A DNA stretch of 58,598 nt from Prosthecobacter sp. (GTDB lineage: Bacteria > Verrucomicrobiota > Verrucomicrobiia > Verrucomicrobiales > Verrucomicrobiaceae). The stretch lies in the NCBI RefSeq assembly GCF_029946185.1, contig NZ_JAQSEA010000082.1, positions 1-58,598 of the forward strand, in the 5' to 3' direction. Made by a program: the position numbers and the translations under genes. A model generated the notes under the pieces. That model was given only the letters and a program-made list of their open reading frames with translations. It did no database searches and was not told the origin of the DNA. Positions within the stretch are counted from its first letter, which is position 1. Every line of letters begins with the position of its first letter. Positions 1-20,397 of this stretch are shown in pieces.

Positions 1-1312
1 TGTACTCCTGCCAGAACATGCCTTTCAATTCGGCGGCGGTGACTTCGCGGCCCAGTTTGTCCACCAAATCGTTGGCGATGGGGCCGAAGTCGCGCTGCAT
101 GTCTTTGGGCAGTTCGATGCCGAATTCGCTTTCCAGCAGGTAGGCGACGCCGCCCTTGCCGCTCTGCGAATTCACGCGAATGACTTCGCGGTATTCGCGG
201 CCGATGTCGTTGGGATCGATGGTGAGGTAAGGCACGTCCCACATGGTCTTGTGCTCTTCGTAGCCGGTGAGTCCCTTCTTGATCGCATCCTGATGGCTAC
301 CGCTGAAGGCGGTGAAGACGAGCTCGCCGCTGTAAGGATGGCGCGGCGCGACGGTCATACCGGTGGTGCGTTCATACATGTGGATGAGGCCGCTCATGTC
401 GCTGAAGTCCAGGCCGGGCGCGATGCCGTGCATGTAGAGATTCATGGCGACTTGCACGACGTCCAGATTGCCAGTGCGCTCGCCATTGCCAAACAGGGTG
501 CCTTCCACGCGGTCGGCTCCTGCAAGCAGGCCCATCTCGGTAGCGGCGGTGCCGGTGCCACGGTCGTTGTGGGTGTGCAGGCTGATGATCAGGCTGTCGC
601 GGTTTTTGATGTTCGTGCAGATCCATTCGATCTGGTCGGCATACACGTTGGGCATGGCCACCTCGACGGTGTCGGGCAGGTTAAGGATCATCTTGTTCTC
701 CGGCGTCGGCTGCCACACGTCCATGACGGCTTCGCTGATCTCCTTGGCGAATTCGACTTCGGTGGCGCTGAAGCTTTCGGGTGAGTACTGCAAGGTCACC
801 TGCGTGCCACCTTCCGTGAGACGGTGGAGGCGGTCCTTGATCATCTGCGCGCCTTTGACGGCCACGGCGATGATCTCTTCCTTGGTCTTGCCAAACACGT
901 ATTTCCGCTGCGCAGGAGACGTGGAATTGTACATGTGGATGACGACCTTCTTGGCACCCAAAAGCGACTCGACGGTCTTCTCGATCAAATCCTCACGCGC
1001 CTGCACCAGGCACTGGATCGTCACATCGTCAGGGATGCGGTTCTCCTCGATGAGGCGGCGGTTGAAGCTGAACTCGGTGTTGGAGGCAGAGGGGAAGCCG
1101 ACCTCGATTTCCTTGAAGCCGCATTTCACCAGAGCATCGAACATTTCGAGCTTCTGGGAGACATTCATCGGCACGGCGAGCGCCTGATTGCCGTCGCGCA
1201 GATCGACGCTGCACCACATGGGTGCGTGGGTCAGATGGCGTGAGGGCCATTGACGATTGGGGATGCTGATCAGCGGGAAGGGCTGATACTTGGAAGAAGG
1301 GTCTTTTAACAT
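1..1312 (-). CDS. leuA: 2-isopropylmalate synthase, C-terminus cut by window edge
   Basis: Condenses acetyl-CoA with 2-oxoisovalerate, the committed cytosolic step of leucine synthesis. About 437 codons are visible from the ATG at 1312; the C-terminal regulatory domain lies outside the window. The catalytic TIM barrel is clear: WCSVDLRDGNQAL near residue 35 contains the metal-binding D-G-N-Q block, KEIEVGFPSAS follows, and HTHNDRGTG near residue 245 supplies the metal-ligand His pair. The N-terminal block PFPLISIPNRQWP is typical of the long yeast/actinobacterial LeuA type rather than the shorter enterobacterial type. A leucine-rich leader ORF lies 114 bases upstream on the same strand, suggesting attenuation control. 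Identity is very secure; the subtype is inferred from the N-terminal block. Confidence 0.96.
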   Translation of the reverse strand, partial: MLKDPSSKYQPFPLISIPNRQWPSRHLTHAPMWCSVDLRDGNQALAVPMNVSQKLEMFDALVKCGFKEIEVGFPSASNTEFSFNRRLIEENRIPDDVTIQCLVQAREDLIEKTVESLLGAKKVVIHMYNSTSPAQRKYVFGKTKEEIIAVAVKGAQMIKDRLHRLTEGGTQVTLQYSPESFSATEVEFAKEISEAVMDVWQPTPENKMILNLPDTVEVAMPNVYADQIEWICTNIKNRDSLIISLHTHNDRGTGTAATEMGLLAGADRVEGTLFGNGERTGNLDVVQVAMNLYMHGIAPGLDFSDMSGLIHMYERTTGMTVAPRHPYSGELVFTAFSGSHQDAIKKGLTGYEEHKTMWDVPYLTIDPNDIGREYREVIRVNSQSGKGGVAYLLESEFGIELPKDMQRDFGPIANDLVDKLGREVTAAELKGMFWQEY

Positions 1313-1380
1313 GACGAGACAAATGGGGACAGGATTAACAAGATTTCAGAATGGCACAGGATTTTCCTGATCTGAGAAAC

Positions 1381-1398
1381 TGCCGTGACGTGACGGCA
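1381..1398 (-). promoter_or_regulatory. Hairpin between leucine leader ORF and leuA
   Basis: The bases tgccgtgacgtgacggca form a 6-bp stem (TGCCGT/ACGGCA) between the leader ORF stop and the leuA start. A second small dyad around AGGATTTTCCT lies at about 1361-1373. Position fits an attenuator, but no strong U-tract follows, so termination activity is inferred only. Confidence 0.35.
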
Positions 1399-1426
1399 AG
1401 GGGCATGACGAGGAAACACGGGCCGC

Positions 1427-1483
1427 CTACCCTTGCGTAAGTCGCAGGGAGAGGAGAAGGAGAGCCGTGGCGGTGGTGGTCAT
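1427..1483 (-). CDS. leuL: Leucine leader peptide (putative attenuator ORF)
   Basis: An 18-codon ORF reads MTTTATALLLLSLRLTQG and stops 114 bases before leuA on the same strand. Six of its eleven last codons are leucine, with four in a row. This is the arrangement of classic amino-acid leader peptides, in which ribosome stalling at scarce leucyl-tRNA changes downstream RNA folding and so controls leuA. No good Shine-Dalgarno sequence is visible, but many genes in this window lack one. The leucine codons are CTC, CTT and CTG, so no rare codon is used. Chance occurrence is possible for so short an ORF; location and composition together make a leader the better reading. Confidence 0.6.
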   Translation of the reverse strand: MTTTATALLLLSLRLTQG

Positions 1484-1508
1484 GGACAGTTGGAAGAAAG
1501 CAGAGATG

Positions 1509-1634
1509 GGGTGACTAGTCAAGAGAGTCAAGGCTTCGCCGTCATGGTGGTCAAGATTGTGAAGAAGGTGGTCGCATGGCGATTTGACGACACTTGACCT
1601 CTTGACTGCGCAGCCCTTGACCTCTTGACTGCTC
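1509..1634. repeat. TTGACC/GTCAAG short-repeat cluster
   Basis: The leuA-hisA intergenic region carries GTCAAG and its complement CTTGAC many times: three GTCAAG-type copies near 1509-1552, then the 21-base unit around CTTGACCTCTTGACTGC repeated twice in tandem at 1588-1634. The same motif clusters at 30302-30440 and 53781-53875. The rest of 1313-1643 holds the leader ORF and a diffuse ACAGGATTAACAAGATTTC-type repeat near 1329-1372. Confidence 0.7.
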
Positions 1635-1643
1635 ACCCTCCCT

Positions 1644-2432
1644 ATGACCCAATTCCGCCCCTGCATTGATCTCCACGATGGCCGCGTAAAGCAGATTGTC
1701 GGCTCTTCGTTGCGTGATGATGGGACGGGACTGAAGACGAACTTTGTGAGCGATCGAGATGCAGCGTGGTATGGCGAGCTGTATCGGCGCGATGGGCTGA
1801 CGGGCGGGCATGTGATCCTGCTGGGGAAGGGGAACGAGGACGCGGCGAAGGCGGCGACGGGGGCATTTCCGGGTGGCTTGCAGGTCGGGGGCGGGATTCG
1901 CTCGTGCAATGCGGCGGAGTATCTGGAGGCCGGAGCCAGCCATGTGATCGTGACAAGCTACCTGTTTGAAACGGATGGCACTTTCAATCAGACACGGCTC
2001 GATAAGATGGTGGCTGCGGCGGGCAAGGAGCGGCTGGTGATTGATCTGAGCTGCAAGGCGACGGCGACGGGCTGGACGGTGGCGATGAACCGCTGGCAAA
2101 CGCTGACGACGCTGGATGTGACGCCGGAGTCGCTGCGCTTTCTTGCGGGACATTGTGCGGAGTTTTTGATCCATGCCGTGGATGTGGAGGGGAAGTGCGA
2201 GGGGATTGATGAGGCGCTGGTGAGTTTTCTCGGCGAGCACTCGCCGCTGCCGATGACCTATGCAGGTGGCATCCGGCACTTGGATGATTTGAAGCGTATT
2301 GATGAACTGAGCCATGGCCGTGTGGATGGCACGGTGGGTAGTGCGCTGGATTTGTTTGGCGGCACGGGGGCGAAGTATGCGGAGCTGGTGGCGTGGAACG
2401 GGCGCAGAAGTAGCGCCATCGATTCAGCCTAG
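1644..2432 (+). CDS. hisA: HisA, eukaryote-type (ProFAR isomerase)
   Basis: Isomerises the aminoaldose ProFAR to the aminoketose PRFAR in histidine synthesis. The 262-residue protein matches the fungal/plant HIS6 branch rather than ordinary bacterial HisA: CIDLHDGRVKQIVG at the start, LQVGGGIRSCNAAEYL near residue 77, VIVTSYLF, LVIDLSCKATATGWTVAMN near 132, EFLIHAVDVEGKCEGID near 177, and YAGGIRHLDDL plus DELSHGRVDGTVGSALDLFGG at the end. The two aspartates expected for acid/base catalysis sit in CIDLHDG and HAVDVEG. It is divergent from leuA. The stop codon lies inside the left arm of an inverted repeat. Function is secure. Confidence 0.95.
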   Translation: MTQFRPCIDLHDGRVKQIVGSSLRDDGTGLKTNFVSDRDAAWYGELYRRDGLTGGHVILLGKGNEDAAKAATGAFPGGLQVGGGIRSCNAAEYLEAGASHVIVTSYLFETDGTFNQTRLDKMVAAAGKERLVIDLSCKATATGWTVAMNRWQTLTTLDVTPESLRFLAGHCAEFLIHAVDVEGKCEGIDEALVSFLGEHSPLPMTYAGGIRHLDDLKRIDELSHGRVDGTVGSALDLFGGTGAKYAELVAWNGRRSSAIDSA

Positions 2433-2562
2433 TTCTACATTGTTAAGCGTCTTGGGCGAGGCGGAGCAGTCCTTGTTCCACAGGAACAAGGCTACTTTGC
2501 TGCGCTGAGACGTCAGCCGAAAGCAACCTGCCTGACGATCAAGTCTAACAATGTAGAACTAG
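2429..2562. repeat. 17-bp perfect inverted repeat bounding a 100-nt element
   Basis: ctagttctacattgtta at 2429-2445 is matched exactly by its reverse complement at 2546-2562. Between them lies a 9-bp hairpin, ccttgttcc/ggaacaagg with an ACA loop, at about 2472-2492. The arms contain the stop codons of both convergent genes (hisA and the minus-strand secreted protein). It could be a bidirectional terminator or a small non-autonomous mobile element. Confidence 0.8.
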
Positions 2563-3759
2563 TATCCCTTCATCATTTCTTTCCGCCCATCATTGAAAAG
2601 CTGGAGGCCTTGGGCACCGGCGGCGCGGATTTTCTTGGCGCGTTCTTCGTAGTGTTCGCGGGTGAGGAGGGTGTGGGGAATGGGCTTCAGCTTGCCTTCG
2701 GCGATGAGTTTGTCTTCCTCGGCCGTGGTGTCGTGGCCTTTGACGGTGGCTTCTTCGCTAAAGTACACGGCGCAACCGCTGCCCTGAGCCATCTTCACAA
2801 ATGGGGCGATGTCGAAGTCGTAGCCGCCGAGGCCATACTGACCGACGACGAGGTAGTCGAGCATGCCTTCCTTTAGCCAGGTTTGGATGTCGCAGCCCCA
2901 GGTGGGATACTTCTGCCAGTCGATGCGGACGGAGAGGCCGAGGTGCCTGCCTTTGCGTTTGCCGGCTTCATCCAAAAGCTTGCGGACGTCGCGGACAAAG
3001 AGGTTCATCATTTCATAGCGCAGCGGAACCCAGCGCGGATCATCCTGGGAAACAGTGCTGGCTTCCACGCCGTATTTCGCTTTGAAGGCATCGCTCATTG
3101 GCTTCTCGAAACCGAAGAAGGTGGGGTGCCGCTGGAAGTCGAGATTGATGCCGTCGATGTCCTGCTCGACCACTTCGCGCAGGATGCCGAGCTTGAACTC
3201 GCGCACTTCGGGGAAGGCGTAGGATTGATGCGCGCCCTCTTTGCCCTTGGCATCCAAAGTGCGGAGCTCGGGGTGCTGCCACCAGAAGGTGCTGTTGGCA
3301 AATTTCGGGAAGGTGCCGCCCCAGGTGTTCGCTGCGTAGTCGCCATTCATGCGGAGTGCGGCGTAGCAGGAGATGCCGGCCTCGTGACAGGCGGCGGTGA
3401 CGATGGCGAGGGTGTTCTCTCCGGCATCGGCCATGCGCTGCACGGTGTCGTGCGCGAGCTTGTCTCCACGGCGGGGGAACTCCTTCATGCCTGTGCCGTA
3501 AAAGTTCCGTGACCTTGGAGGGATAATTGGTGCGGCTGCCCGCGACGACACACCACTCCAGCACGGCGATCTGCGTGTCTTTGTAGAAGTGCATCGACTT
3601 CTTCAAATCTTCCGCGCCTTTGTATCGGCCGCTGTAGAAAGAGCTAAAGCCGTCGTCATACGCGACAAGAGTCAGGTCGCCCCCGCGTGGCTTGGGCGGC
3701 TCGGCGGCAAGGAGCGTGGCGCTGAACAGGCAGAGGGCGGGAAGGAGGAAGCGGGGCAT
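2559..3759 (-). pseudogene. Secreted TIM-barrel-like putative glycoside hydrolase, one frameshift
   Basis: The start at 3759 gives a Sec signal peptide (MPRFLLPALCLFSATLLAA) followed by DLTLVAYDDGFSSFYSGRYK. The frame breaks near 3505 after NYPSKVTE and resumes one base out as YGTGMKEFPRRGDKLAHD, continuing to GLQLFNDGRKEMMKGY. Removing one T from the four-T run CTTTTACGG restores a protein of about 399 residues. The C-terminal part (VEQDIDGINLDFQRHP, LGLSVRIDWQKYPTWG, MLDYLVVGQYGL) resembles the TIM-barrel proteins of GHL10/DUF-type putative glycosidases found in PVC bacteria. The substrate is unknown. Base-calling error and true decay both fit. Confidence 0.7.
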
Positions 3760-3891
3760 GGGAAATGAACGCAGTTGATGACGCATTCGTTGCGAATTGT
3801 GCGCCTGACGACGCTTCAATTAAGACGGGGACTCCCGTCCGCCAAGAAAACGGTTGAAGCAGCGGGAGTGCCCGCTTCACTTCATGCACAC

Positions 3892-4695
3892 ATGAAAATC
3901 ATCCGCTACACCGACTCGCTGGGAAACATTGCGCATGCGGCATTGCAGGCGGATGGCACGGCGCTGCTCATCGAGGGAGACATCTTGGGTGAGCACCGCG
4001 TGACTGACCGCAAGGCGGAGGAGACCAAGCTGCTCGCGCCGGTGCAGCCGTTTGCGATTGTGTGCATCGGGCTGAACTACAAGAAGCATGCGGAAGAGAC
4101 GAAGGCAGAGATCCCAAAGCATCCCGTGGTGTTCATGAAACTGCCGAATGTGGTGCAGCATCCAGGAGAGCCGATCCTGCTGCCGACTCATCTCAAGAGC
4201 GACAAGGTCGATTACGAAGCCGAACTGGCGGTGGTCATTGGCAAGAAGGCGAAGAATGTGAGCAAGGCGGATGCGTTGAATTATGTGCTGGGCTACACCT
4301 GCGCGAATGATGTGAGCGCGCGTGACTGGCAGAAGCACGGCGGTGGAGGTCAATGGTGCCGTGGCAAGTCGTTTGATACTTTCTGCCCGCTTGGCCCGGT
4401 GCTGGTGACAGCGGACGAGATCCCGAATCCGAACAGCCTTGCGATCAAGACGATGCTCAATGGAGAGACGATGCAGGAGTGGAACACGGACGACATGATC
4501 TTTGATGTGCCGACGCTGATCGAGTTTCTGAGCGGCAGCACCACGCTGATGCCTGGCACTGTGATCCTCACCGGCACGCCCCATGGCGTGGGCGCGGCGC
4601 GCACGCCTCCGGTGTTTATGAAGGATGGAGATACGGTGAGCGTGGAGATCGCGCAGATCGGGACGCTGACGAATCCGGTGCGGAATGAGGCGTGA
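3892..4695 (+). CDS. Fumarylacetoacetate hydrolase family protein
   Basis: A 267-residue FAH-superfamily enzyme, which hydrolyses or isomerises acylpyruvate-type C-C bonds with a divalent metal. The start is [12 protein letters not shown] at 3892; upstream in-frame codons lack family similarity. [16 protein letters not shown] near residue 58 is the family's entry motif. The metal site is [12 protein letters not shown] near 105 (E-x-E) with the ligand Asp in [11 protein letters not shown] near 138. [10 protein letters not shown] and [14 protein letters not shown] near 240 are the usual substrate-loop and C-terminal motifs. Members cover oxaloacetate decarboxylases, acylpyruvases and 2-keto-gluconate type enzymes, so the exact substrate is open. 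It diverges from the frameshifted gene upstream. Confidence 0.88.
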
Positions 4696-4697
4696 GC

Positions 4698-4787
4698 AAA
4701 GTAGTTCAGAGCTTTAGCTCGCTCCGGGTCTGGGGACGCGGGGCCACACGAACACCTTCATTTCAGGCCATGGAATTTTTCGGCTGA
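4698..4787 (+). repeat. GAGCTTTAGCTC family repeat, copy flanking the DNA glycosylase gene on the left
   Basis: Begins AAAGTAGTTC and contains GAGCTTTAGCTCGCTCCGGG, three bases after the stop of the FAH gene. About 90 bases align almost base for base with 6040-6130, including a shared GGGCCACA and ACACC.TCATTT tail. The two copies are in direct orientation around 4901-5998. Confidence 0.8.
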
Positions 4788-4900
4788 GCTTTAAAAGCCA
4801 TCTGGATACAGCACGACAGCGGGACCGATCATTTCTGCTTGGCGGGCAACATCATCGCAACGACTACTCAAACAACTGTTTCCCGTGTTTCAATTTTCCC

Positions 4901-5998
4901 ATGCCCGCTGAACCGAGCCTCGACGATCTGCGTCGCTACGCGTTGGCGCGCACCCTGTTCACGCCGACCACGCTGCTGGGTGCCATCCAGCGCTTGGGTT
5001 TTGTGCAGGCGGACCCGATCCGCGCTCCGGCACGGGCGCAGGACCTTACTCTGCGCCACCGCGTCAAGGACTACCGCGTGGGCGATCTGGAGCGCCGGTA
5101 TGAGAGTCTTGCAATCGACGAGGACTGCCTGATCAACTATGGTTTCCTTCCACGCGAGCACCTGGCGCTGATGCATCCGCGCCAAGCTGCCCGGCATTGG
5201 GATGCCGAGAACGAGCGCAAGGCCGCCGACATTCTGGCCTTCGTGCATGAGCGCGGCGCAGTCCATCCCCGCGAGGTCGAAGCGCACTTTGCCCACGGGC
5301 GCGTCAAGAATTACTGGGGCGGTTCGAGCAACGCCAGCACGCACCTGCTCGACGGCATGCACTATCGCGGCCTGTTGAGGGTGAGGCGGCGCGACAGCGG
5401 CACCCGCGTCTATGAGGCCGTGGCGCATCCACCCTTGGATGACAGCCCTGAGGGAGGCGCACGGCGTGCGGCCGCATTGATCGACCTGGTGGTGCGCAAG
5501 TATGCGCCCCTGCCTGCCGCCAGCCTGACCTACTTGGTACGGCTGCTCGGCTATGGCGCGCCGCATCTGGCGGCCCAGAAGCAGGCAGCACTTCGGCTGG
5601 CACGTGAGCAACTGGCCAGTTGTCGCCTCGACGGAACGATCTGGTACTGGCCCGCCGACGAGAAGCCGCGCTCGCGCCGCCATACAGTGGACGAACGGCT
5701 GCGCTTGCTCGCCCCCTTCGATCCCGTGGTCTGGGACCGTCGCCGCTTCGAGCTGCTGTGGGGGTGGAGGTACAAGTTCGAGGCCTACACGCCGCCAGCA
5801 AAGCGTCAGTTCGGCTACTACGCGCTACCGATGCTCTGGCGCGGGCATGTCATCGGCTGGGCCAACGTATCCGCACGGGAGGGTCGGCTGGAGTCGGTCT
5901 TTGGCTATGCGGCGGGATCGGCACCGGGCGGCGCGGCGTTCCGAAGCGCGCTGGACGAAGAGCTGCAGCGCATGGAGCAGTTCTTTGCCGCACGCTGA
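4901..5998 (+). CDS. YcaQ/AlkZ-family winged-helix DNA glycosylase
   Basis: A 365-residue member of the winged-helix DNA glycosylase family that includes E. coli YcaQ (AlkX) and Streptomyces AlkZ, which unhook interstrand crosslinks or bulky N-glycosidic lesions. The diagnostic Q-x-D catalytic block is GFVQADPIRAPARAQDL near residue 33; the YcaQ branch has Q-x-D and the AlkZ branch Q-x-Q, so this belongs to the YcaQ-like side. Further family features are GFLPREHLALMHP near 84, WGGSSNASTHLLDGMHYRGLLRVRR near 136, RLRLLAPFDPVVWDRRR near 260 and the C-terminal GYYALPMLWRGHVIGW. Length is close to the family norm. The gene is bracketed by two direct copies of an intergenic repeat, which could reflect acquisition as a unit. 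Confidence 0.87.
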   Translation: MPAEPSLDDLRRYALARTLFTPTTLLGAIQRLGFVQADPIRAPARAQDLTLRHRVKDYRVGDLERRYESLAIDEDCLINYGFLPREHLALMHPRQAARHWDAENERKAADILAFVHERGAVHPREVEAHFAHGRVKNYWGGSSNASTHLLDGMHYRGLLRVRRRDSGTRVYEAVAHPPLDDSPEGGARRAAALIDLVVRKYAPLPAASLTYLVRLLGYGAPHLAAQKQAALRLAREQLASCRLDGTIWYWPADEKPRSRRHTVDERLRLLAPFDPVVWDRRRFELLWGWRYKFEAYTPPAKRQFGYYALPMLWRGHVIGWANVSAREGRLESVFGYAAGSAPGGAAFRSALDEELQRMEQFFAAR

Positions 5999-6039
5999 TC
6001 CAATCTAGGGCGGCGAGCGTGATTCTCACTCTTCCCGCC

Positions 6040-6318
6040 AAAGTACTCGCGAGCTTTGGCCCGCTCCGGGCGTGGGAAAGATGGGCCACATGGACACCCT
6101 CATTTTGGCCAAGGATTTTGTTGGCAGAGGATGCAGAATCCGGAAGTCCGGAATTCTGAGGTCTGGTTTCAGATTTTTGCCATTCCTTTGATCTCCATTC
6201 CCTTGCCATAAAACAACTGCTCCGCCTGCCCCTGGCAAAGCACGGATGAACTTGAGTTTGCGCTGGGAGAGGGGCGTTGCGTTTGCCAGAACGAGCTAAA
6301 GCTCATGAGTACTTTTTT
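6040..6318. repeat. Inverted-repeat-bounded intergenic element (GAGCTTTAGCTC family)
   Basis: The left end reads AAAGTACTC then GAGCTTTGGCCCGCTCCGGG. The right end, 6287-6318, reads AGAACGAGCTAAAGCTC then ATGAGTACTTTTTT, the inverse of the left. The element fills the space between the DNA glycosylase stop and the stop of the LON-domain gene. The interior shows no gene I can recognise. Confidence 0.75.
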
Positions 6319-6941
6319 CAGCAGTCCTGCGCTTTTTCCAGTTCGCTGATGAGCATTTCGTAGCGGCGCTGGGGGCAGCATTCTTCGAGGAGGGCGCGGA
6401 GGGCGGCTTTTTTCCGCACGAAGTGAAAGGCGATGATGTCGCAGACGGCTTCGGCTTCGTCCATTTCTTCAAGTTCCTGCCGCATTTGATGCATGCTGGC
6501 GCAACTGTCATCGGTGGGCGCTGGCAGCAACTCAAGCGCGCGTGATTTCAAAAGGCGCAAGGCTTTAGTGGGCGCATGCTGGGTGAGCACGGGCTCCACA
6601 CGGGCGATGCGGAAGGGCTTCACCTGATCCCAACCGGTGATGCGTACGCGGCAGACGCCGTAGAGCATGACCTGTGAGGTGCCGTCGGGATTTTTGACCG
6701 AGGCACGGATGAGCCCCGCCGTGGTGACTGGCAGCACGTCATTACCGCCGTCGGAAACGCCGACGCAGAACATGCGGTCAGTTTGCAGCGCGTGGTCCAG
6801 CATGCGGCGGTAGCGGTCTTCAAAGATGAAGAGCGGCAGATGGCAGCCGGGGAAGTGGTAGCAGTCGTCCAGCACTATTACCGGCAGGCTTTGAGGGAGC
6901 ATAAAGCCTTTGGCCGAGAATGTTTTTGAGGAGATGTCCAT
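6318..6941 (-). CDS. LON substrate-binding domain protein
   Basis: A 207-residue stand-alone protein with the N-terminal (substrate-binding) domain of Lon protease and no ATPase or protease part. The pattern LPVIVLDDCYHFPGCHLPLFIFEDRYRRMLDHALQ near residue 20 is the family's PLF-x-FE-x-RY motif, followed by CVGVSDGGNDVLPVTTAGLI and a Lon-like beta-barrel segment VMLYGVCRVRITGW. The C-terminus is helical and acidic (QELEEMDEAEAVCDIIAF). Such proteins may act as protein-interaction or substrate-adaptor modules; the role is not established. An alternative start at MLPQSL (6902) is possible. Its stop codon abuts one intergenic repeat and another lies upstream at 7027-7106. Confidence 0.8.
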   Translation of the reverse strand: MDISSKTFSAKGFMLPQSLPVIVLDDCYHFPGCHLPLFIFEDRYRRMLDHALQTDRMFCVGVSDGGNDVLPVTTAGLIRASVKNPDGTSQVMLYGVCRVRITGWDQVKPFRIARVEPVLTQHAPTKALRLLKSRALELLPAPTDDSCASMHQMRQELEEMDEAEAVCDIIAFHFVRKKAALRALLEECCPQRRYEMLISELEKAQDC

Positions 6942-7026
6942 GAGTCAGGTGACACGGGGGATACGTGCCCATGCGTCCGATGGTTCCTTGTTTCCTGCGC
7001 AACGCCAATGAATCGTTCGGAAGGAC

Positions 7027-7106
7027 AAAGTACTTACGAACTTTAGCGCGTTCTGGGAGGTGCGCTGCGCTCCAGAATCCGGAGCGAGCTAAAGCTCACG
7101 AGTACA
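7027..7106. repeat. GAGCTTTAGCTC family repeat, paired copy
   Basis: AAAGTACTTACGAACTTTAG plus CGCGTTCTGG on the left, and GGAGCGAGCTAAAGCTCACG plus AGTAC on the right, form an 80-base imperfect inverted repeat with a short GC-rich centre. It ends 8 bases before the stop codon of the next minus-strand gene. Confidence 0.8.
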
Positions 7107-7114
7107 TTCCTAAA

Positions 7115-8590
7115 TCATTCAAAGCGGAAGGAGAACACGTCGGCATCCTTGAGAACCCAGCGCAGACGCACGGGCTTGCCGGCCAGAGCGGAGACATCGC
7201 TGCCGGCCTTCCAGGCGATGACGCGGTCGATGTCGTCGTAGGAGATCGCCTTGCAGTCGTCCAAGGTGAAGCCGGGCAGGGGCTTGCCGTCGGCGTCTTG
7301 AATTTCGACTGCCACAGAGCCAGCGGCACCGGTGGACAGATTCAGGTGCAGCGCCTTCCCGGTGAAGGTGAAGGGCTGGGTGGTCATCTCACCGCCTGCG
7401 TAGTCGGCGTGCAGCGAGGCGAAGCCGTCGAGGCGCAGGGTGTAGCGCTGCAGCAGCGCGGTGGACTGGCCGTAGTGGCGCTCCACGTAGAGGGACATCT
7501 CCGACTTGCCGGTTTGTACCACACCGCAGGCAGGGTAGTTGCTGCGGCTGGTCCAGTTGCGGAAGTGCAGGCCGGGACGCACGAAGCCTTCCATGAAGGT
7601 GCGGTTGTAGGCGGTTGTGCCGGCGCGGCTGGTCATCAGCACGGCTTCGGAGGTATCCTGAATCAGGGCAGGGTAGGCCTTGGTGTCTTCGGCGAGGTAT
7701 TTCTTCGCCTGCTCATCCAGCACGTCCGTCTTGGGCATGAAGCGGGCAGCGGTGGAGATGTAGAGGTGCGGGGCGTTGAAGTACGGATTCGTCTGGCTGA
7801 TGTAAATGTGATCCACCAGCGGCTGATCGCTGGTCATTTGTATGGCGTCGGTCCAGGTGAGGAAATCTTTGCTGGTGGCGCGGCTGACCCAGCGCACGCC
7901 TTTGGGCTTCCAGGTCTTTTCATCAATGCCGCCGCCGGTGAAGACGCGGAAGTAGGCGACGTAGCACTGCTCCGCTTCGGACCAGAAAGAGACGTTCTGT
8001 GAGTCAAACGCGCCTTTGGTGATCACCGCCGCGTCCTGCATTTTTTGCCAATGCAGCCCATCCGCCGAGACGAAGGCGCTGAGACCACCGTACTTGCCGC
8101 CGAGACCTGCGAGGGCCTTGTAGCGCTGCTCTTTGGGCACACCGGGACGGCGGTCGATGAATGGGGCGAAGTTGTGCGTGTAGGGTGCCAGATTGGCCAG
8201 CATGACGTTGTTGTCCTTGCTGCCGTTGATCTCGTGCAGGCCCAGCTTGGGCTTTACCCAATTTTTGCCATCGGCAGATTCGGCGTAGCAGGTGACTTCG
8301 CCGCTGGTGCCGTCTTTAAAGCCCGCATTGCCACGGTAGTACATCTGGAATTTCTTCGCCTCGTCATTGTGGATAACGGTGATGTACGCGCTGAAGCGGC
8401 CCTCCCAAGGCTGGTCAAATTTCACCGCGATGCCCGCCTCTTCGGGAGGGTGCAGTCGCAGCGTGGTGCCCTGCATCTGGTCGATAAGCAGCTTGTCCAC
8501 GAAAAGCTCACGACGAGAGCCGATGGCGGTGACTTCAGCGGACGCGATGCCGGTGAAGAGGGCAAGGAAGGGCAGGAGAGAGCGGAGCAT
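7115..8590 (-). CDS. Secreted beta-propeller, glycosyl hydrolase family 32/43-like
   Basis: A 491-residue exported protein. The signal peptide is MLRSLLPFLALFTGIASA. The mature part has repeated propeller-type segments with Y/W-x-S-x-DG-x-x-W patterns (CYAESADGKNWVKPKLGL, AFVSADGLHWQKMQDAA, WVSRATSKDFLTWTDAI), as in five-bladed GH32/GH43-like proteins common in Verrucomicrobia and Planctomycetes. The N-terminus carries SRRELFVDKLLIDQMQGTTL, a block shared by PVC proteins of this type. The C-terminal 110 residues form a beta-rich module ending VLKDADVFSFRFE. A polysaccharide substrate is likely but catalytic acids cannot be assigned by eye. Repeats flank it on both sides. Confidence 0.75.
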   Translation of the reverse strand: MLRSLLPFLALFTGIASAEVTAIGSRRELFVDKLLIDQMQGTTLRLHPPEEAGIAVKFDQPWEGRFSAYITVIHNDEAKKFQMYYRGNAGFKDGTSGEVTCYAESADGKNWVKPKLGLHEINGSKDNNVMLANLAPYTHNFAPFIDRRPGVPKEQRYKALAGLGGKYGGLSAFVSADGLHWQKMQDAAVITKGAFDSQNVSFWSEAEQCYVAYFRVFTGGGIDEKTWKPKGVRWVSRATSKDFLTWTDAIQMTSDQPLVDHIYISQTNPYFNAPHLYISTAARFMPKTDVLDEQAKKYLAEDTKAYPALIQDTSEAVLMTSRAGTTAYNRTFMEGFVRPGLHFRNWTSRSNYPACGVVQTGKSEMSLYVERHYGQSTALLQRYTLRLDGFASLHADYAGGEMTTQPFTFTGKALHLNLSTGAAGSVAVEIQDADGKPLPGFTLDDCKAISYDDIDRVIAWKAGSDVSALAGKPVRLRWVLKDADVFSFRFE

Positions 8591-8633
8591 GCTTTCTCAT
8601 ACAGGCGGCGGTGTGGGGATGTTGCAGGGTAAC

Positions 8634-8710
8634 AAAGTACTTATGAGCTTTAGCTCATTCTGGGAGGTACGGAACTTTCCAGAACGAAGTAAAGTTCTAA
8701 ACTACTTTCC
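8634..8710. repeat. GAGCTTTAGCTC family repeat, paired copy
   Basis: The left arm is AAAGTACTTATGAGCTTTAG then CTCATTCTGG; the right arm is CCAGAACGAAGTAAAGTTCT then AAACTACTTT. The 77-base imperfect palindrome sits between two minus-strand genes and ends exactly at the stop codon of the downstream one. Confidence 0.8.
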
Positions 8711-11700
8711 TCAGAGGCTCTTCAAATACGCTACGATGTCGCTGATGGCCTGCGGGGTGAGGCCGAGTTGCTGGGGCTGGTACATGAGGGAGCGGGTCAT
8801 CTTCGTGATGCTGACGATGCGCTCTTTCGGCACGGTCTGCACGAGGCCGCCCATGCACTTGATCATGACGGGATCGCCGCTGGAAAGGATCATGCCGCTG
8901 ATGGTGAGGCCGTCCTTCGTTTTGATCTCGCTGCCTTCAAAGCCATGGGAGATGTCGGCGGAGGGATGGGCGATGGCTTGAGCAATGACCTCGGTGGGCT
9001 GCTGCTTGCCGAAGGTGCTGAGGTCGGGGCCATATTCGACGCCCATGTTGCCGACCTTGTGGCAGGTAAAGCACACGGCGATGGCGGCCTGACCGCGTTT
9101 GGCATCGCCGGGGAGCTGGGCGATCTCCGCACCTGTGGGGAGCTTCGGCGCGTCTTTGATTTCAGGGGGCATCTCAATGGCGATGAGTTTCACCTTGGCT
9201 GGATCATACAGGCCGAGCGCTTTCATGCCGCCTTCCACATCGTAGGACTGCCAGTCGTTGCCTTTGCGATTGAGCAGCCACCACTTGGCGAGTTCCTTCA
9301 TGGGAAAGTCCTTGGTGTTGGCGAGTTCGATCATCGCGCCTGCAGCTTCGCGGCTTTTCACAAAGGCGAGTCCGGTGAGCATGAGCTTGCGCTGCTCTTC
9401 GGTGAGTGCGGTATCGAGGGCACGGGTCTTGAAGGCCTCCACCGCAGCGGCGGGGTGCAGACGCCAGGCAATCCATGCCTGGGCCTCGGTCCATGCGGCA
9501 GGCTTGTCCTTGATGACGGCGGCATAGAGTTCGGCTTCCTTGCCTTCAGCACCAAGGCCGAGGGCTTCGAGGTAGGCGCGGTCTTTGCCATCAAACTGCT
9601 CAGCGAGTTTCACCAGCAGCGGCAGGCTTTGAGCAGCGGGAACTTCACGCAAAGAAAGAGCGACTTCGCGGCGCACGGCAGCGGAGGAATCGGCGGCCAT
9701 TTTTGCGACCAAGCTTGGCCTATCATTCATATAGAAACGAATCAGAATGAAACTACGCAGCGCGCGATAAGCCACCACTCGCTGCTCTTCGTCTTTGGAA
9801 TCCAGCCAGGGCTTCACCTGCTCCACGCCTTCTAGACCCATCTGCGCGAGCAGCCATGCAGCACGCGCGGCGATGTAGGCGCTGTCGTCTTTGAGCAAGG
9901 CGGCGACGGCAGGCACGGCTTTTGCGCCCTGGGCTTTGAGTGCGGTGAATCCATTGTAGCGCACGTTTGGCGCAGGGCTTTTCAGCGCGGCGATCTGGCC
10001 TTCCGTGGTGTCGAGCTTGAGCGCAGGAACATTGGAAGCAAAACCCTTCGGTGCGATGCGGTAGATCGTGCCGGTGTAGCGATCATCCAGCGTGCCGTGG
10101 CCACCCACGCGGGCGTCGAACCAATCAGCCACGTAGATCGCGCCATCGGGACCGACGGTGACATCGCTGGGGCGGAAGCGGGTTTTGAGTTCACCCGTGG
10201 GCTTGCCGCCGAGGAAGTCGGAACCGGCGAATTCCTTCTCCTTGTTGGAGGTGAGGAAATCAAAGCGCTCCATTTTCCAGCCTGCGCCATCGAGCTTGGG
10301 CAGATAGCCGAAGACGACGTTCTTGCCAGCTTCACAAGCGAGGAGGAGGCCGTTCCATTTGGCATCCAGAGCGCCGTTTTCATAGAAGGCCACGCCGGTG
10401 GGAGAGCCGCCGCCATAGACATCGCCAGCGGGCATGGTGCCGGGATCTTCCTGCCGCCACTCGGCAGTGGGGGTATCCTGTCCGGGGCGTTTGTCGGCAC
10501 CCCAGGAACGCAGGCCGTCAGCGGAGGCAAAGCCCGCATTGCCGCCTTCCATCACGGGGGAGACGCGGCAGGCGGGCGGGTCGTCGTTGTCGCTTTGGAA
10601 GATGTCACCGAATGAGGTGATGGTCTGCTCGTAGCTGTTGCGGTAGTTGTGGCCGATGATGGTGACGTTGCTGCCGTCCGGGTTCATGCGGGCGGTGAAG
10701 CCGCCGATCCACACATGGCCGTCGTCGCTCTTCTGTCCGGCGATGTCCTGCATCATGTAGGGACTGCCCATGCGGAAGGTCTTGCCAGAGTGGTCGGTGA
10801 ATTTCGCGCCGGTGTTGCCTTGATTCCAATACCACTGGCCATCGGGTCCGGCGGTGACGCTGTGCAGGCTGTGGTCGTGCTGGCGGCCGCCGAAGCCGGT
10901 GAGCAGCACGTCGCGCTTGTCCACGGTGGGATCAAATTTGCCGTCGCCATTCACGTCGGTGTAAACGAGCAGATCGGGGGGCTGGGAGACGACGATCTTG
11001 TTGCCGAGAACGGCGACACCCAGAGGCGCCGCGAGGGCGGATTCCTGGACAAACACGGTACTTTTATCCGCGCGGCCTGAGCCGGTGGTGTCTTCGAGCA
11101 CGACGACGCGGTCGCCCTCCGGCCTGCGGCTGCCTTTGCTGCGGTAGTTCACGCCTTCCGCCACCCAGAGACGGCCCTGGGCATCGAAGTCGATGTTGGT
11201 GGGATTGAACAAGGCGGGCGAGCTGGCCCAGACGGTCACTTCGAGACCTTCGGGGACGTTGAACATATCCGCAGGCACCGTGGTCTTGCCGTCGTCCACG
11301 ATGGGAGGCGCAGGCTTGGGCGCATTGGGAGGTGTTTCGGTATAGACCTGAAATTTGACCGAGGCATTGCTGGCCTTGCCGCCGCGCTCCATGCCGCCGT
11401 CGTCAATGGCCGCCTGTGCGGTGAAGCCCACCACGTCCTTCGGTAGATCATAGACGATCACTGAGCGTGCATGCGTGCCGATACCCTTGGCATAGGTCTT
11501 GCCTCCCACCAGCAGGGAACCGCCCATGGCTGATTTCCCAACGCGTGTACCGCCCGTGCCTTGGCTGGCGGCTTTCCATGGCAGTTGGGTCAGATCCTTG
11601 GTAGAGCCGTCGGCCATGATGAGCTTGGGCTCCAGCCAGTCCGCCCAGTCACAGCTGATTCCATCCTCATCCGAGACGACGAGGTACAATTCCTTCGCGC

Positions 11701-11839
11701 CTTTGAGTGAGGCGTCCACCTTGACCAAGCGCGCGGTGCTTGCGGTGGTGAGCTTCGGGCTTTCGAAGACAGGGCTGGCAGCGACAGCGCATGAGGCGGA
11801 AGCGAGCAGCGCGAGGAGGATCAGGTGGCGGGGCGTCAT
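8711..11839 (-). CDS. PVC giant protein: NPCBM + membrane-bound dehydrogenase + HEAT + haem-binding domain
   Basis: A 1042-residue exported protein (signal MTPRHLILLALLASASCAVAA). Domains in order: NPCBM carbohydrate-binding module, about 30-165 (KGIGTHARSVIVYDLP); PVC membrane-bound dehydrogenase propeller, about 190-590 (PEGLEVTVWASSPALFNPTNIDFDAQGRLWV, GPDGQWYWNQGN, DVTVGPDGAIYVADWFDARV); HEAT-like helical repeats, about 620-860 (VPAVAALLKDDSAYIAARAAWLL); C-terminal putative haem-binding domain with one c-type site CFTCHKVG near residue 950. This architecture is characteristic of Planctomycetes and Verrucomicrobia and is thought to couple oxidation of a sugar-like substrate to periplasmic electron transfer. 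The substrate is unknown. It forms a minus-strand series with the propeller gene, separated by a repeat. Confidence 0.88.
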   Translation of the reverse strand: MTPRHLILLALLASASCAVAASPVFESPKLTTASTARLVKVDASLKGAKELYLVVSDEDGISCDWADWLEPKLIMADGSTKDLTQLPWKAASQGTGGTRVGKSAMGGSLLVGGKTYAKGIGTHARSVIVYDLPKDVVGFTAQAAIDDGGMERGGKASNASVKFQVYTETPPNAPKPAPPIVDDGKTTVPADMFNVPEGLEVTVWASSPALFNPTNIDFDAQGRLWVAEGVNYRSKGSRRPEGDRVVVLEDTTGSGRADKSTVFVQESALAAPLGVAVLGNKIVVSQPPDLLVYTDVNGDGKFDPTVDKRDVLLTGFGGRQHDHSLHSVTAGPDGQWYWNQGNTGAKFTDHSGKTFRMGSPYMMQDIAGQKSDDGHVWIGGFTARMNPDGSNVTIIGHNYRNSYEQTITSFGDIFQSDNDDPPACRVSPVMEGGNAGFASADGLRSWGADKRPGQDTPTAEWRQEDPGTMPAGDVYGGGSPTGVAFYENGALDAKWNGLLLACEAGKNVVFGYLPKLDGAGWKMERFDFLTSNKEKEFAGSDFLGGKPTGELKTRFRPSDVTVGPDGAIYVADWFDARVGGHGTLDDRYTGTIYRIAPKGFASNVPALKLDTTEGQIAALKSPAPNVRYNGFTALKAQGAKAVPAVAALLKDDSAYIAARAAWLLAQMGLEGVEQVKPWLDSKDEEQRVVAYRALRSFILIRFYMNDRPSLVAKMAADSSAAVRREVALSLREVPAAQSLPLLVKLAEQFDGKDRAYLEALGLGAEGKEAELYAAVIKDKPAAWTEAQAWIAWRLHPAAAVEAFKTRALDTALTEEQRKLMLTGLAFVKSREAAGAMIELANTKDFPMKELAKWWLLNRKGNDWQSYDVEGGMKALGLYDPAKVKLIAIEMPPEIKDAPKLPTGAEIAQLPGDAKRGQAAIAVCFTCHKVGNMGVEYGPDLSTFGKQQPTEVIAQAIAHPSADISHGFEGSEIKTKDGLTISGMILSSGDPVMIKCMGGLVQTVPKERIVSITKMTRSLMYQPQQLGLTPQAISDIVAYLKSL

Positions 11840-11844
11840 GGGTG

Positions 11845-12022
11845 AGAAAGTAGTCGTGAGCTTTAGCTCGTTCTGTACGAAGTCGTCCAGAGCTTTCGCT
11901 CATCCTTCGCAGTCGAGTGCCACAAACCGGATCAGCTGGTTTTGGGAAGGAAGTGAGCTTCCAGAGAGAGCTAAAGCTCTCGAGTACTTTTCCAGAGCGA
12001 GTTGAAGCTCTGGACTACTTTG
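11845..12022. repeat. GAGCTTTAGCTC family repeat, compound copy with four half-units
   Basis: Four half-units fill this divergent intergenic region: GAGCTTTAGCTCGTTCTG near 11858, CCAGAGCTTTCGCTC near 11888, CCAGAGAGAGCTAAAGCTCT near 11961, and CCAGAGCGAGTTGAAGCTCT near 11992. The outer ends read AAAGTAGTC and GACTACTTTG. Confidence 0.75.
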
Positions 12023-12079
12023 CCGAATCTCTCAACGACTTTGGCTTGTGGCGCGGAAAACATTCTCCACATTCAGAGC

Positions 12080-12595
12080 ATGAAATCCCTCCTGCTTTTT
12101 CTGACCGCTGCAATGCTTTCATCCTGCCAGACCACCTCCGAGGAGTACCACGTGGGAAGCGTGGCCGAAGCGAAAGCGTTTGCGCGGAGAGCGGTGGAGG
12201 TGGGCTACATTCACGCGGGAGGAGAGACGGCGCTGGTCGCGGAGAAGTCCGTGGGCAGGCCGCTGGAGGGCAAGTGGAGCCCGCAAAAAGTCGATGCCTT
12301 TCTGAATCAGTATGCGGCGGAACATCCACGCCTGATGGAGATCAACAAGGCGGCCACCACAGGGAAGATCAATGAAAAGGAGCGCGTGATTCTGGTGAAC
12401 GTGCTGCGCGGTCAGGAGGAACGGCTGGCCGAAGCCCAAAATGCCGAGGCGCAGGTTGCGGCGGACAATCTCAATCAATCGGCCGCCATGTTGAACCAGA
12501 CCTCATCCTACCGTCAGAATTCGGCGCTCATGCAGTCCACGCCCCAGTCCGGGTACTCCGGCTATGGGACGGGATTTGGCGGCAGAAGTTTCTGA
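12080..12595 (+). CDS. Small lipoprotein of unknown function
   Basis: A 171-residue protein starting at ATG 12080 (MKSLLLFLTAAMLSSCQTTS), with a signal peptidase II lipobox LSSC. An upstream in-frame ATG at 12002 would bury the signal sequence and lies in a repeat, so it is not used. The mature part is helical and charged (EAKAFARRAVEVGYIHAGG, KWSPQKVDAFLNQYAAEHP, VLRGQEERLAEAQNAEAQV) and ends in a Q/S/G-rich tail (YSGYGTGFGGRSF). I do not recognise the family. It is probably anchored in a cell membrane facing the periplasm. Confidence 0.75.
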   Translation: MKSLLLFLTAAMLSSCQTTSEEYHVGSVAEAKAFARRAVEVGYIHAGGETALVAEKSVGRPLEGKWSPQKVDAFLNQYAAEHPRLMEINKAATTGKINEKERVILVNVLRGQEERLAEAQNAEAQVAADNLNQSAAMLNQTSSYRQNSALMQSTPQSGYSGYGTGFGGRSF

Positions 12596-12617
12596 GGATT
12601 TCTAGCGCGAAGAGCTG

Positions 12618-12800
12618 TTGTGCTGCCCTTGGCCCAGGAGGGCACGAGGCCTAAACGCATGCGCTCCATGCCGACCTCATCGGCCTCCATGGTCAGCACG
12701 TCCGCGTCATCCGTGGAGCGGATGTTGTGGATCACCTGCGCCTCTGACTTCTTGCCGCCCCAAAGCGCTTCTGCCTCACGTTTTCGGCGGTCGATTTGAA
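12618..12800 (-). pseudogene. Fragment of an SRAP (YedK/HMCES-type) gene
   Basis: In the minus frame this stretch reads AQVIHNIRSTDDADVL, then TMEADEVGMERMRLGLVPSW and AKGS. It is closely similar to residues 37-80 of the complete SRAP gene at 19461-20273 (AQVIHNICPTDYADVL, TMQADEIGMERMRFGLVPAW). The catalytic N-terminus (Met-Cys) and everything after WAKGS are gone. The nucleotide similarity starts and ends abruptly, so this is a decayed or recombined duplicate lying between a lipoprotein gene and iclR. Confidence 0.85.
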
Positions 12801-12850
12801 GTTGTTGCAAGAAAACCCGCAGTCTCAGGTATATCCTGCGTGAAGCAGTC

Positions 12851-12862
12851 GGAACACGTTCC
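12851..12862. promoter_or_regulatory. Dyad upstream of iclR, candidate autoregulatory operator
   Basis: ggaacacgttcc is a 5-bp dyad (GGAAC/GTTCC) four bases before the iclR start. It resembles IclR-family half-sites (TGGAA.../...TTCCA). Inferred from position and pattern only. Confidence 0.35.
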
Positions 12863-12866
12863 ATAT

Positions 12867-13655
12867 ATGGCACAGCGCCATTCCAAAAAAATGCCTGAAC
12901 CGGTTGTCGAAGCACCGGCGCTGGATCGTGGGCTGGCGGTCTTGGAGGCGCTGGATGCACAACCTGCGGGCATGACGCTGACTGAGATCAGCACGGCCAT
13001 CGGCGGACCGAAGAACTCCACTTCGCGCCTGATTTCAACGCTCATCGCACGGGAGTATGTGGTGCGGGATGATTCGACGATGTGCTTTCGGCTGACGGGA
13101 AAGCTGCTGCGACTGGGACAGCCGCAGGTGGCGGATGTGAGCCTGGTGGAGTGCTCGCTGGACGCGATGCGGGCGCTGCGGGATGCCGTGGGCGAGACGG
13201 TGCAGATCGGCATTCCGATTGGGGACGAGGGTGTCATCATCGAGAAGATCGAGAGCACGCAGGCGTTGCGCATCGGCGTGAACATCGGCTTGCGCTTCCC
13301 ACTGCACAGCAATGCCCCCGGGAAGGTGCTGCTGGCTTTTCGCCATCCGAAGGAGCGCGAACGCACGATCAACCGGATCAAGCTGGAGCGGTTCACGGAT
13401 CGGACGATCACGGACAAGGCGACGCTGCGTGCGGATTGTGAACGCGTGATGAAACAAGGCTATGCGACCGACTGGGGCGAGGCGGATGAGGGCATCCATT
13501 GCGTAGCAGCACCCATTCGGGACCGGCTCAATGCGCTCATGGCGACGCTCTGGGTATCAGGCATCGCCGGGCGGATGCCGAAGAGCACCTTCACAGCCGT
13601 GGCGGCCGAGGTGATGAAAGCGGCAGGCGAGATCGAAAGGAGGCTTCGTGCATGA
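12867..13655 (+). CDS. IclR-family transcriptional regulator
   Basis: A 262-residue regulator. After a short polar leader comes LDRGLAVLEALDAQPAGMTLTEISTAIGGPKNSTSRLISTLIAREYVVRD (residues 19-70), the winged helix-turn-helix. The effector domain covers about 85-255, with VECSLDAMRALRDAVGETVQIGIP, FPLHSNAPGKVLLAF near 150, GYATDWGEADEGIHCVAAPI near 195 and a final LWVSGIAGRMPK. Such proteins bind small acids or sugar derivatives and often act on adjacent genes. The start at 12867 follows a GGAAC/GTTCC dyad. The stop overlaps the next start by ATGA, so it is translationally coupled to a cytochrome/DUF1553 gene that it probably controls. Confidence 0.92.
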   Translation: MAQRHSKKMPEPVVEAPALDRGLAVLEALDAQPAGMTLTEISTAIGGPKNSTSRLISTLIAREYVVRDDSTMCFRLTGKLLRLGQPQVADVSLVECSLDAMRALRDAVGETVQIGIPIGDEGVIIEKIESTQALRIGVNIGLRFPLHSNAPGKVLLAFRHPKERERTINRIKLERFTDRTITDKATLRADCERVMKQGYATDWGEADEGIHCVAAPIRDRLNALMATLWVSGIAGRMPKSTFTAVAAEVMKAAGEIERRLRA

Positions 13656-16579: not shown

Positions 16580-16593
16580 ATCCACCCGATCCC

Positions 16594-17931: not shown

Positions 17932-17951
17932 AGCCTCCACCCCGGCACCCC

Positions 17952-19388: not shown

Positions 19389-19460
19389 AGCACCCATGCC
19401 TGCTTGCGCTTGTCAGGGTGGCACCTGGCCACGCGCGAGGATCTATCCCATAGGGGGGAT

Positions 19461-20322: not shown

Positions 20323-20397
20323 TGGTGCGCCCGCCAGGAATCGAACCTGGATATGCGGCTTCGGAGACCACCATTCTATCCGTTGAACTACGAGCGC
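20323..20397 (-). tRNA. tRNA-Arg (anticodon CCG)
   Basis: A full cloverleaf reads on the minus strand: 7-bp acceptor GCGCTCG/CGGGCGC, D arm, 5-bp anticodon stem GTGGT/GCCGC with loop CTCCGAA (anticodon CCG, codon CGG), variable loop ATAT and T arm CCAGG-TTCGATT-CCTGG. The 3' CCA is encoded. Confidence 0.93.

Follow-up and report, generated by a model that had tools for sequence, protein, structure and literature searches.

A probable leucine-responsive leader-peptide attenuator of leuA in Prosthecobacter and other Verrucomicrobiota

The enterobacterial leu attenuator (leuL) and the leucine operon leader of Rfam combine a leader peptide rich in Leu codons with alternative 1:2, 2:3 and 3:4 pairings and an intrinsic terminator. 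For the leuA genes of Actinobacteria, one report describes a LEU element, a pseudoknot whose base stem joins Leu codons to the leuA Shine-Dalgarno sequence, as well as mutation data from the Streptomyces coelicolor leuA leader that are at odds with classical attenuation (PMC1262725). In two further papers, the Streptomyces lividans leader leuL1, MRFGLLLLSCRGEGL, is leaderless and lacks a typical terminator (PMC8079986), and a Corynebacterium diphtheriae leu leader reads MNRANLLLLRRGGSQA (PMC5784534). The view in 2010, before the Firmicutes hisS/hisZ histidine leaders, was that leader-peptide systems had not been shown outside the Proteobacteria and Actinobacteria (PMC2965389).

The locus described here lies in a window of 58,598 nt from Prosthecobacter sp., the whole stretch of DNA that was analysed. 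It shares with the actinobacterial leuA leaders a leader with a Leu run before leuA, and an LLLLS-x-R stretch is common to leuL1 and the window leader. Two further traits of leuL1 recur in the window's genus: the lack of a typical terminator, which is observed there, and a leaderless mRNA, which is predicted. Also counted with the actinobacterial likeness is the TIGR00970 type of LeuA, for which the cut-off was passed by one of 14 control genomes and exceeded by the best match in 11 of the 12 genomes searched; the twelfth is the window's own, in which the leuA copy is cut by the contig end and reached 634 of 697 bits. Unlike the LEU element, leuA of the window's genus has neither a Shine-Dalgarno-like motif nor a Leu-codon/Shine-Dalgarno pairing, and its relatives in subdivision 3 and in families f22 and f15 possess real terminators. 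The resemblance to enterobacterial leuL (Leu leader, alternative pairings, intrinsic terminator) is found in subdivision 3 and partly in f22 and f15, whereas the absence of an Rfam match, a predicted near-leaderless transcript, a T-rich tract that is mostly missing in the window's genus, and a CGA-CTT core set the verrucomicrobial leaders apart. The Firmicutes hisS/hisZ leaders are alike as attenuation outside the Proteobacteria and Actinobacteria, but differ in amino acid, gene and phylum.

The leader and the genes on either side of it are as follows.

Positions 1 to 1312, minus strand: leuA (2-isopropylmalate synthase, TIGR00970 type), start codon at 1312, extending past the window edge.
Positions 1427 to 1483, minus strand: leader peptide ORF (a leuL) encoding MTTTATALLLLSLRLTQG and a stop codon, recognised by its translation, conservation, coding constraint and Leu statistic.
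Positions 1644 to 2432, plus strand: divergent hisA-like gene from the ORF list, forming the upper border of the intergenic region.

As the original prediction had described, the ORF runs from 1483 to 1427, comprises 18 codons with an LLLL run and six leucines within the last 11, stops 114 nt before the leuA ATG at 1312, and is followed by hairpin-forming sequence, TTGCCGT-CACGTC-ACGGCAG at 1400-1381. The prediction had further held that the pairing with leuA made chance unlikely. Leu enrichment of the ORF against 200 dinucleotide shuffles of its own 300 nt gave an empirical p of about 0.02, so this one sequence alone is weak evidence, and it is conservation that makes the ORF convincing. An ORF arisen by chance would be compatible with that p value but is contradicted by the conservation and other comparative evidence given below, and we consider it scarcely credible. 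The predicted fold of the whole window leader was not exceptional (z -1.07). Rfam searches of the window at gathering scores gave no match at the leader, the single match being a tRNA at 20326-20397, and 14 leader loci, including the window's own (L009), had no match at E<=1; a T-box or known riboswitch was rejected for want of any Rfam covariance model match.

Some other features of this region were observed. The sequence around GGACAGGATTAACAAGATTTCAGAATGG at 1328-1365, between the hairpin and leuA, is a dispersed repeat with similar copies on contigs 236, 279 and 144. The gene starting at 1644 on the plus strand, which we take from its sequence to be hisA, is immediately preceded by CTTGACCTCTTGACTGC at 1593-1632, present twice as a direct repeat and with similar sequence on contigs 139, 190, 261 and 8; the -35 element proposed below for the leader sits in a stretch related to it. 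From 2559 to 3780 on the minus strand, one gene is apparently split over two overlapping frames near 3480-3530, by a frameshift or an assembly error.

For comparison, leuA was found in 65 of the 68 genomes of the window's family. A draw of 212 genomes across the phylum gave 100 with the gene, five of which belong to the family. The family set consisted of 62 of the 65 upstream regions (32 + 30 loci), the remaining three lacking the 5' end of the gene, and 68 upstream stretches were obtained from the 95 other leuA-bearing genomes of the phylum draw. Eighty further loci, the best 80 of 585, came from named genomes that overlap with the other genome sets and include Prosthecobacter sp., Brevifollis gellanilyticus and subdivision 3/Limisphaerales records. 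Loci L087, L090, L097, L115 and L116 were dropped to give 205 regions, of which 181 were distinct once duplicates were removed, and removal of L193 and L197 reduced the subdivision 3 group from 35 to 33.

Using recognition patterns drawn up after inspection of the data, we recognised a leader in 58 of the 62 family loci. The window-type form (..LRLTxG-stop) occurs in 44 distinct regions, here called genus-type. The same post hoc patterns recognised leaders in 12 of 14 f5 loci (13 with L164), 2/2 in f12, 2/3 in f9, 3/7 in f3, 1/1 in f2, 3/3 in f22, 2/2 in f15 and 70 of 78 named-genome loci. The original prediction had proposed a search of related leuA upstream regions for a conserved Leu-rich ORF, and had named its absence, or that of the Leu run, from close relatives as the contrary outcome; such an ORF is present in the family and beyond it. 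Within the family, the patterns found no leader in genus g5 (L129, L132, L141) or at L144, and the g5 case is an apparent loss within the family. Elsewhere the pattern search found none in four of the seven f3 loci, in f7, f8, f10 (three loci), f11 and f13, or in f17, f19, f24, f25, f30, f32, f36, f37 and f46 (one or two loci each), while single matches in f14 (1/11) and f40 (1/3) look like chance. Pattern-negative families are not all empty, as an f8 locus has the CGACTT core and the f10 locus L184 contains an ORF whose Leu enrichment reaches p<=0.01. A pattern-free search for Leu-enriched small ORFs at p<=0.01 identified 52 of the 181 regions on the sense strand versus two of 181 antisense, with 22 of the 44 genus-type regions passing. 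In seven loci of f3, f9 and f12 (L161, L172, L174, L175, L176, L179 and L180), the leaders end in CTCCC(C/T)-stop-GGGG, an ending that would form a small hairpin where the ORF finishes, with the stop codon in its loop.

The leader appears to be translated, judging from the coding constraint on it. Over the six codons before LRLT (n=44), dN/dS was 0.25 in frame versus 1.07 and 3.84 out of frame, and over nine codons (n=44) it was 0.47 versus 0.81 and 3.10, with a control value of 0.90 in the spacer before leuA; this pattern is one of purifying selection in the leader frame, while the Leu codons of the run vary freely at synonymous sites. In subdivision 3 the signal was mild, pN/pS on a codon alignment being 0.67 in frame versus 0.98 and 1.03 out of frame. 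These values replace a first test of that group, which ignored gaps and had given dN/dS of 1.61 in frame and 0.71 and 1.10 out of frame.

Such constraint would also be expected of a conserved micropeptide that functions without cis regulation. However, the N-terminal half of the leader is variable, the peptides differ from family to family, and the ORF keeps its place: a model, R1, derived from the 44 genus-type sequences matched 47 of the 68 family genomes, strongly in 46 (all but G066), many of these matches being by construction since the genomes concerned supplied its sequences, and 45 of the 46 strong matches share a contig with leuA and lie directly upstream of it. In the remaining genome, G022, the match is on a different contig from the leuA fragment. 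Second matches were found in G054 (strong, on another contig) and in G024 and G034 (weak). We regard a free-standing micropeptide as very improbable.

The codon content of the leader has the character of a short ORF rich in codons for the amino acid made by the downstream pathway. In genus-type leaders CTT accounts for 39% of 275 Leu codons versus 5% of 1215 in leuA (8.7% in 29 long ORFs of the window), and for 64 of the 172 leader Leu codons outside the fixed core discussed below; CGA makes up 51 of 55 leader Arg codons versus 18 of 754 in leuA. Subdivision 3 leaders likewise have more CTT than their leuA genes (23% versus 5%), but their commonest Leu codon is CTG (56% versus 24% in leuA), so the enrichment of rare codons is not general. 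Leaders in f5 have as few as two Leu codons.

The best promoter-like pair in the window, TTGACT-17-TTTCTT, is situated just upstream of the leader.

Positions 1517 to 1522, minus strand: -35-like hexamer TTGACT, of the best pair, with 8 of 12 consensus matches and a spacer of 17.
Positions 1494 to 1499, minus strand: -10-like hexamer TTTCTT, with 10 nt between the hexamer and the leader ATG.

Pairs that match the consensus at 8 or more of 12 positions precede 70% of the 44 genus-type leaders (5% in shuffles) and 85% of the 33 subdivision 3 leaders (8% in shuffles); the corresponding shares are 71% in group B (14 loci), 38% in f5 (13 loci) and 86% in group E (seven loci). Of the 31 genus-type leaders with such a pair, 27 have 8-10 nt between the end of the -10 and the leader start codon; in subdivision 3 this interval is 6-7 nt for 24 of 28. 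Before the leuA ATG, mean promoter scores were close to those of shuffles (6.59 versus 6.34, and 6.79 versus 6.22). Transcription starting downstream of the leader, which the original prediction had listed as evidence against itself, is therefore not what these predicted sites suggest, although a stricter 9-of-12 scan of 1200-1700 found no promoter at all. Shine-Dalgarno-like 4-mers precede only three of the 44 genus-type leaders and none of the 33 in subdivision 3; from their rarity, and from the -10-like hexamer 10 nt before the ATG, the leader mRNA would be leaderless or nearly so, with transcription probably starting at or within a few nucleotides of the leader ATG.

Alternative RNA folds, which the original prediction had also proposed to look for, are best developed in subdivision 3. 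A representative leader there encodes MNRNLNLLLTNALLTGAAVGF and a stop codon and is followed by a terminator, AACCCCACTGCC..GGCGGTGGGGTTTTTG. Across the group 96.2% of 396 terminator cells are paired, 14 are changed on both sides, and none of 500 shuffles scored as high. The last leader codons, GGCAGTCGGGTTC, can pair with the 5' arm of the terminator as an antiterminator in 85.9% of 396 cells (37-61% in slid registers; 340 of 429 cells when a mismatched column is included). Four of the 12 pairs of this 2:3 pairing are changed on both sides, a covariation score reached by 60 of 500 shuffles, and in L101 and L112 regions 2, 3 and 4 change together at one position. The 1:2 pairing joins the early Leu codons to the leader end, and in all 33 loci both duplexes can form, at -12.8 to -28.2 kcal/mol for 1:2 and -13.1 to -21.5 kcal/mol for 2:3 (values obtained without a shuffled control). 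As predicted from these folds, subdivision 3 has the complete textbook attenuator layout, in which the leader end can pair with the 5' arm of a covarying terminator followed by a U-tract. In f22 and f15, four of five loci combine a U-tract terminator (-17.5 to -26.2) with a 2:3 pairing (-15.8 to -21.1) made of other sequences, again without a shuffled control; L204 was not counted in this folding, as no T5 tract was reached within the folded piece.

The window's genus has the following RNA elements, in which the pairing of region 2 with region 3 and a downstream hairpin T can be laid out in the same way.

Positions 1403 to 1447, minus strand: nearly invariant 45-nt block in 44 species, which starts at CTG CGA CTT, spans the stop codon and ends 24 nt past it.
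Positions 1430 to 1449, minus strand: hairpin H1, CCCTGCG-ACTTA-CGC(N)AGGG (3' part CGCNAGGG), at the end of the leader ORF.
Positions 1422 to 1427, minus strand: region 2, GGCGGC, which overlaps the stop codon and is proposed as the antiterminator strand.
Positions 1393 to 1398, minus strand: region 3, GCCGTC, the 5' arm of hairpin T.
Positions 1381 to 1400, minus strand: hairpin T, TTGCCGT-CACGTC-ACGGCAG, the proposed output hairpin, followed by AGTTTCTCAG with four T in 10 nt.

H1 was recognised by pattern in 43 of the 44 loci and by inspection in the last (L124); in L030, L123, L057 and L130, sequence changes shift the bulge or the register and the stem is kept. All 220 cells in the five-pair core of hairpin T (GCCGU/ACGGC) are paired and 13 of them carry changes on both sides, a score that none of 500 shuffles reached. 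The pairing of regions 2 and 3 (GGCGGC/GCCGUC) holds in 263 of 264 cells but shows no covariation in the window's genus, and a register slid by -3 still pairs in 82%; mutually exclusive pairings are supported in subdivision 3 and at four of the five f22/f15 loci. An alternative pairing, GCAAGGG/CCCUUGC (251 of 283 cells, 88.7%), was set aside in favor of GGCGGC/GCCGUC. A T-rich tract of at least 5 T in the 10 nt past hairpin T is present in only 11 of the 44 loci, the window not among them. A standard scan of 1200-1700 detected no terminator-like site, and the GC-rich hairpin with a U-tract before the gene that marks a classical Rho-independent terminator is seen in subdivision 3 and not in the window. 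A terminator scan of 1-20000 gave 17 sites versus 16.7 in shuffles, and without an excess it says little on the form of terminators here. The window's-genus system is classed as a variant because the canonical terminator was not found there.

The missing T-rich tract after most genus-type hairpins could mean that the leader peptide acts on leuA translation, or through another RNA arrangement, rather than on transcription, as proposed for the actinobacterial LEU element; the Streptomyces leuA leader likewise lacks a typical terminator, and in the LEU element the leuA Shine-Dalgarno sequence is base-paired to Leu codons. Against this, none of the 44 genus-type loci has a Shine-Dalgarno-like 4-mer before leuA, a duplex between the Leu run and the start region of leuA reaches -1.4 kcal/mol, weaker than with shuffles of that region (-3.3 kcal/mol), and relatives have true terminators. 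Pairing of the LEU-element type was rejected on the first two of these grounds, and translational control in the broader sense seems to us unlikely, if still worth weighing. Ribosome-mediated attenuation of leuA is the reading that we prefer.

A further feature of many leaders is the sequence CTN-CGA-CTT-A, found in 59 of the 181 regions on the sense strand and in none antisense, with 0.05 expected; the shorter CGACTT occurs in 86 of 181 regions versus 15.7 in shuffles. The full core is present in 39 of 44 genus-type regions, in 12 of 13 regions of the f5 group and one further f5 region, in five of 20 other named-genome regions, and in two of 35 in the subdivision 3 group. It lies within H1 in the genus type or, in the consensus structure from RNAalifold, within a longer hairpin with imperfect pairing, and in those subdivision 3 leaders that have CGAC it falls within region 1, able to pair with region 2. 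Leaders of f5 such as MRNNAQALRLT-stop have no Leu run, and the CTNCGACTTA core is retained in them although the run is lost; no consistent pairing partner for CGACTT was found in f5. Several f5 loci among L154-L171 have a hairpin of about 10 pairs, ACGCACGATC..GATCGTGCGT, beginning at or within the leader end.

Persistence of this core without a Leu run, and the near-invariance in 44 species of a block that continues 24 nt beyond the stop, would fit a ligand- or protein-binding structured RNA (a riboswitch or T-box-like element) with the ORF incidental to it. Leaders in the family's other genera have a later stop, and similar nucleotides (about GGGYTGGCGGCCC) fall within their reading frame, which suggests that this stretch is kept as RNA. 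The constraint on the leader frame, together with the free synonymous variation of the Leu run, the Leu-rich ORFs of different sequence that occupy the same place before leuA in other families, and the empty Rfam searches speak against such an element, and we consider it improbable.

We conclude that the leuA leader is, with high probability, a leucine-responsive, ribosome-mediated leader-peptide attenuator, a reading supported by conservation, coding constraint and the alternative folds of relatives. In the proposed mechanism, transcription would begin at or within a few nucleotides of the leader start codon and a ribosome would translate the leader while RNA polymerase proceeds. With sufficient leucyl-tRNA, the ribosome would reach the stop codon and cover region 2, so that region 3 could join region 4 in the downstream hairpin, and leuA expression would be cut. 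When leucyl-tRNA is short, the ribosome would stall on the Leu codons, region 2 would be free to pair with region 3, and leuA would be expressed in the absence of the downstream hairpin. Stalling and occlusion of region 2 are presumed steps, and the comparison supports the scheme through coding constraint, Leu-codon content, predicted promoter position, the 3:4 hairpins and the 2:3 pairing of subdivision 3; leucine sensing by the leader appears well supported on these sequence comparisons. We infer the same logic for the window's genus because its GGCGGC/hairpin T arrangement mirrors the subdivision 3 layout; there, hairpin T may serve as the off-switch through weak intrinsic or Rho-dependent termination, or through an effect on translation. 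A more far-reaching proposal, which we advance tentatively and think somewhat doubtful, is that this is an old leucine attenuator of the Verrucomicrobiota on leaderless mRNA, with CTN-CGA-CTT-A (codon pair CGA-CTT) as a fixed core in the Verrucomicrobiaceae, f5 and some others, kept in f5 without the Leu run, and that the window's genus, which lacks both a U-tract terminator and a Shine-Dalgarno sequence, has a new output architecture acting via the nearly invariant 45-nt RNA block across the stop.

A general habit of attenuation in these genomes was rejected on scans upstream of trpE and ilvB. Upstream of trpE, 12 loci showed no Trp run and two ORFs with two isolated Trp codons each (L241, L243), in a scan that is incomplete because several frames open far upstream of the true start. 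Upstream of ilvB, one of the nine correctly framed loci out of 14 (L232) had a terminator preceded by a leader rich in Ile, Val and Leu; L219, L223, L227, L228 and L231 were excluded from the count as wrongly framed. In L232, the second ilvB copy of G194 (f12), the leader read by eye is MKFNSVIVLVSVVVVLVTSTASARA and a stop codon, followed by a U-tract terminator, which makes the locus a probable branched-chain attenuator from a different family of the class.

The original prediction knew of little description of such leaders in Verrucomicrobia, and our literature searches agree: among the matches listed, with subscription journals mostly outside their scope, we found no earlier account of leader-peptide control of this kind in the phylum, and of two listed papers that mention both Verrucomicrobia and a leader peptide, one concerns ermB and the other the E. 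coli His and MgtL leaders. As far as these searches reach, the probable leucine leader-peptide attenuator is new for the phylum. It would extend ribosome-mediated amino-acid attenuation to a large and poorly studied group and predicts that many verrucomicrobial leuA genes bear an unannotated leader gene. The leaders form a natural series, from textbook terminators in subdivision 3 through the terminator-poor form of the window's genus to the f5 forms with few Leu codons, and together with the actinobacterial leuA leaders, of which that of S. lividans is also leaderless and without a typical terminator, this series makes the mode of control testable.
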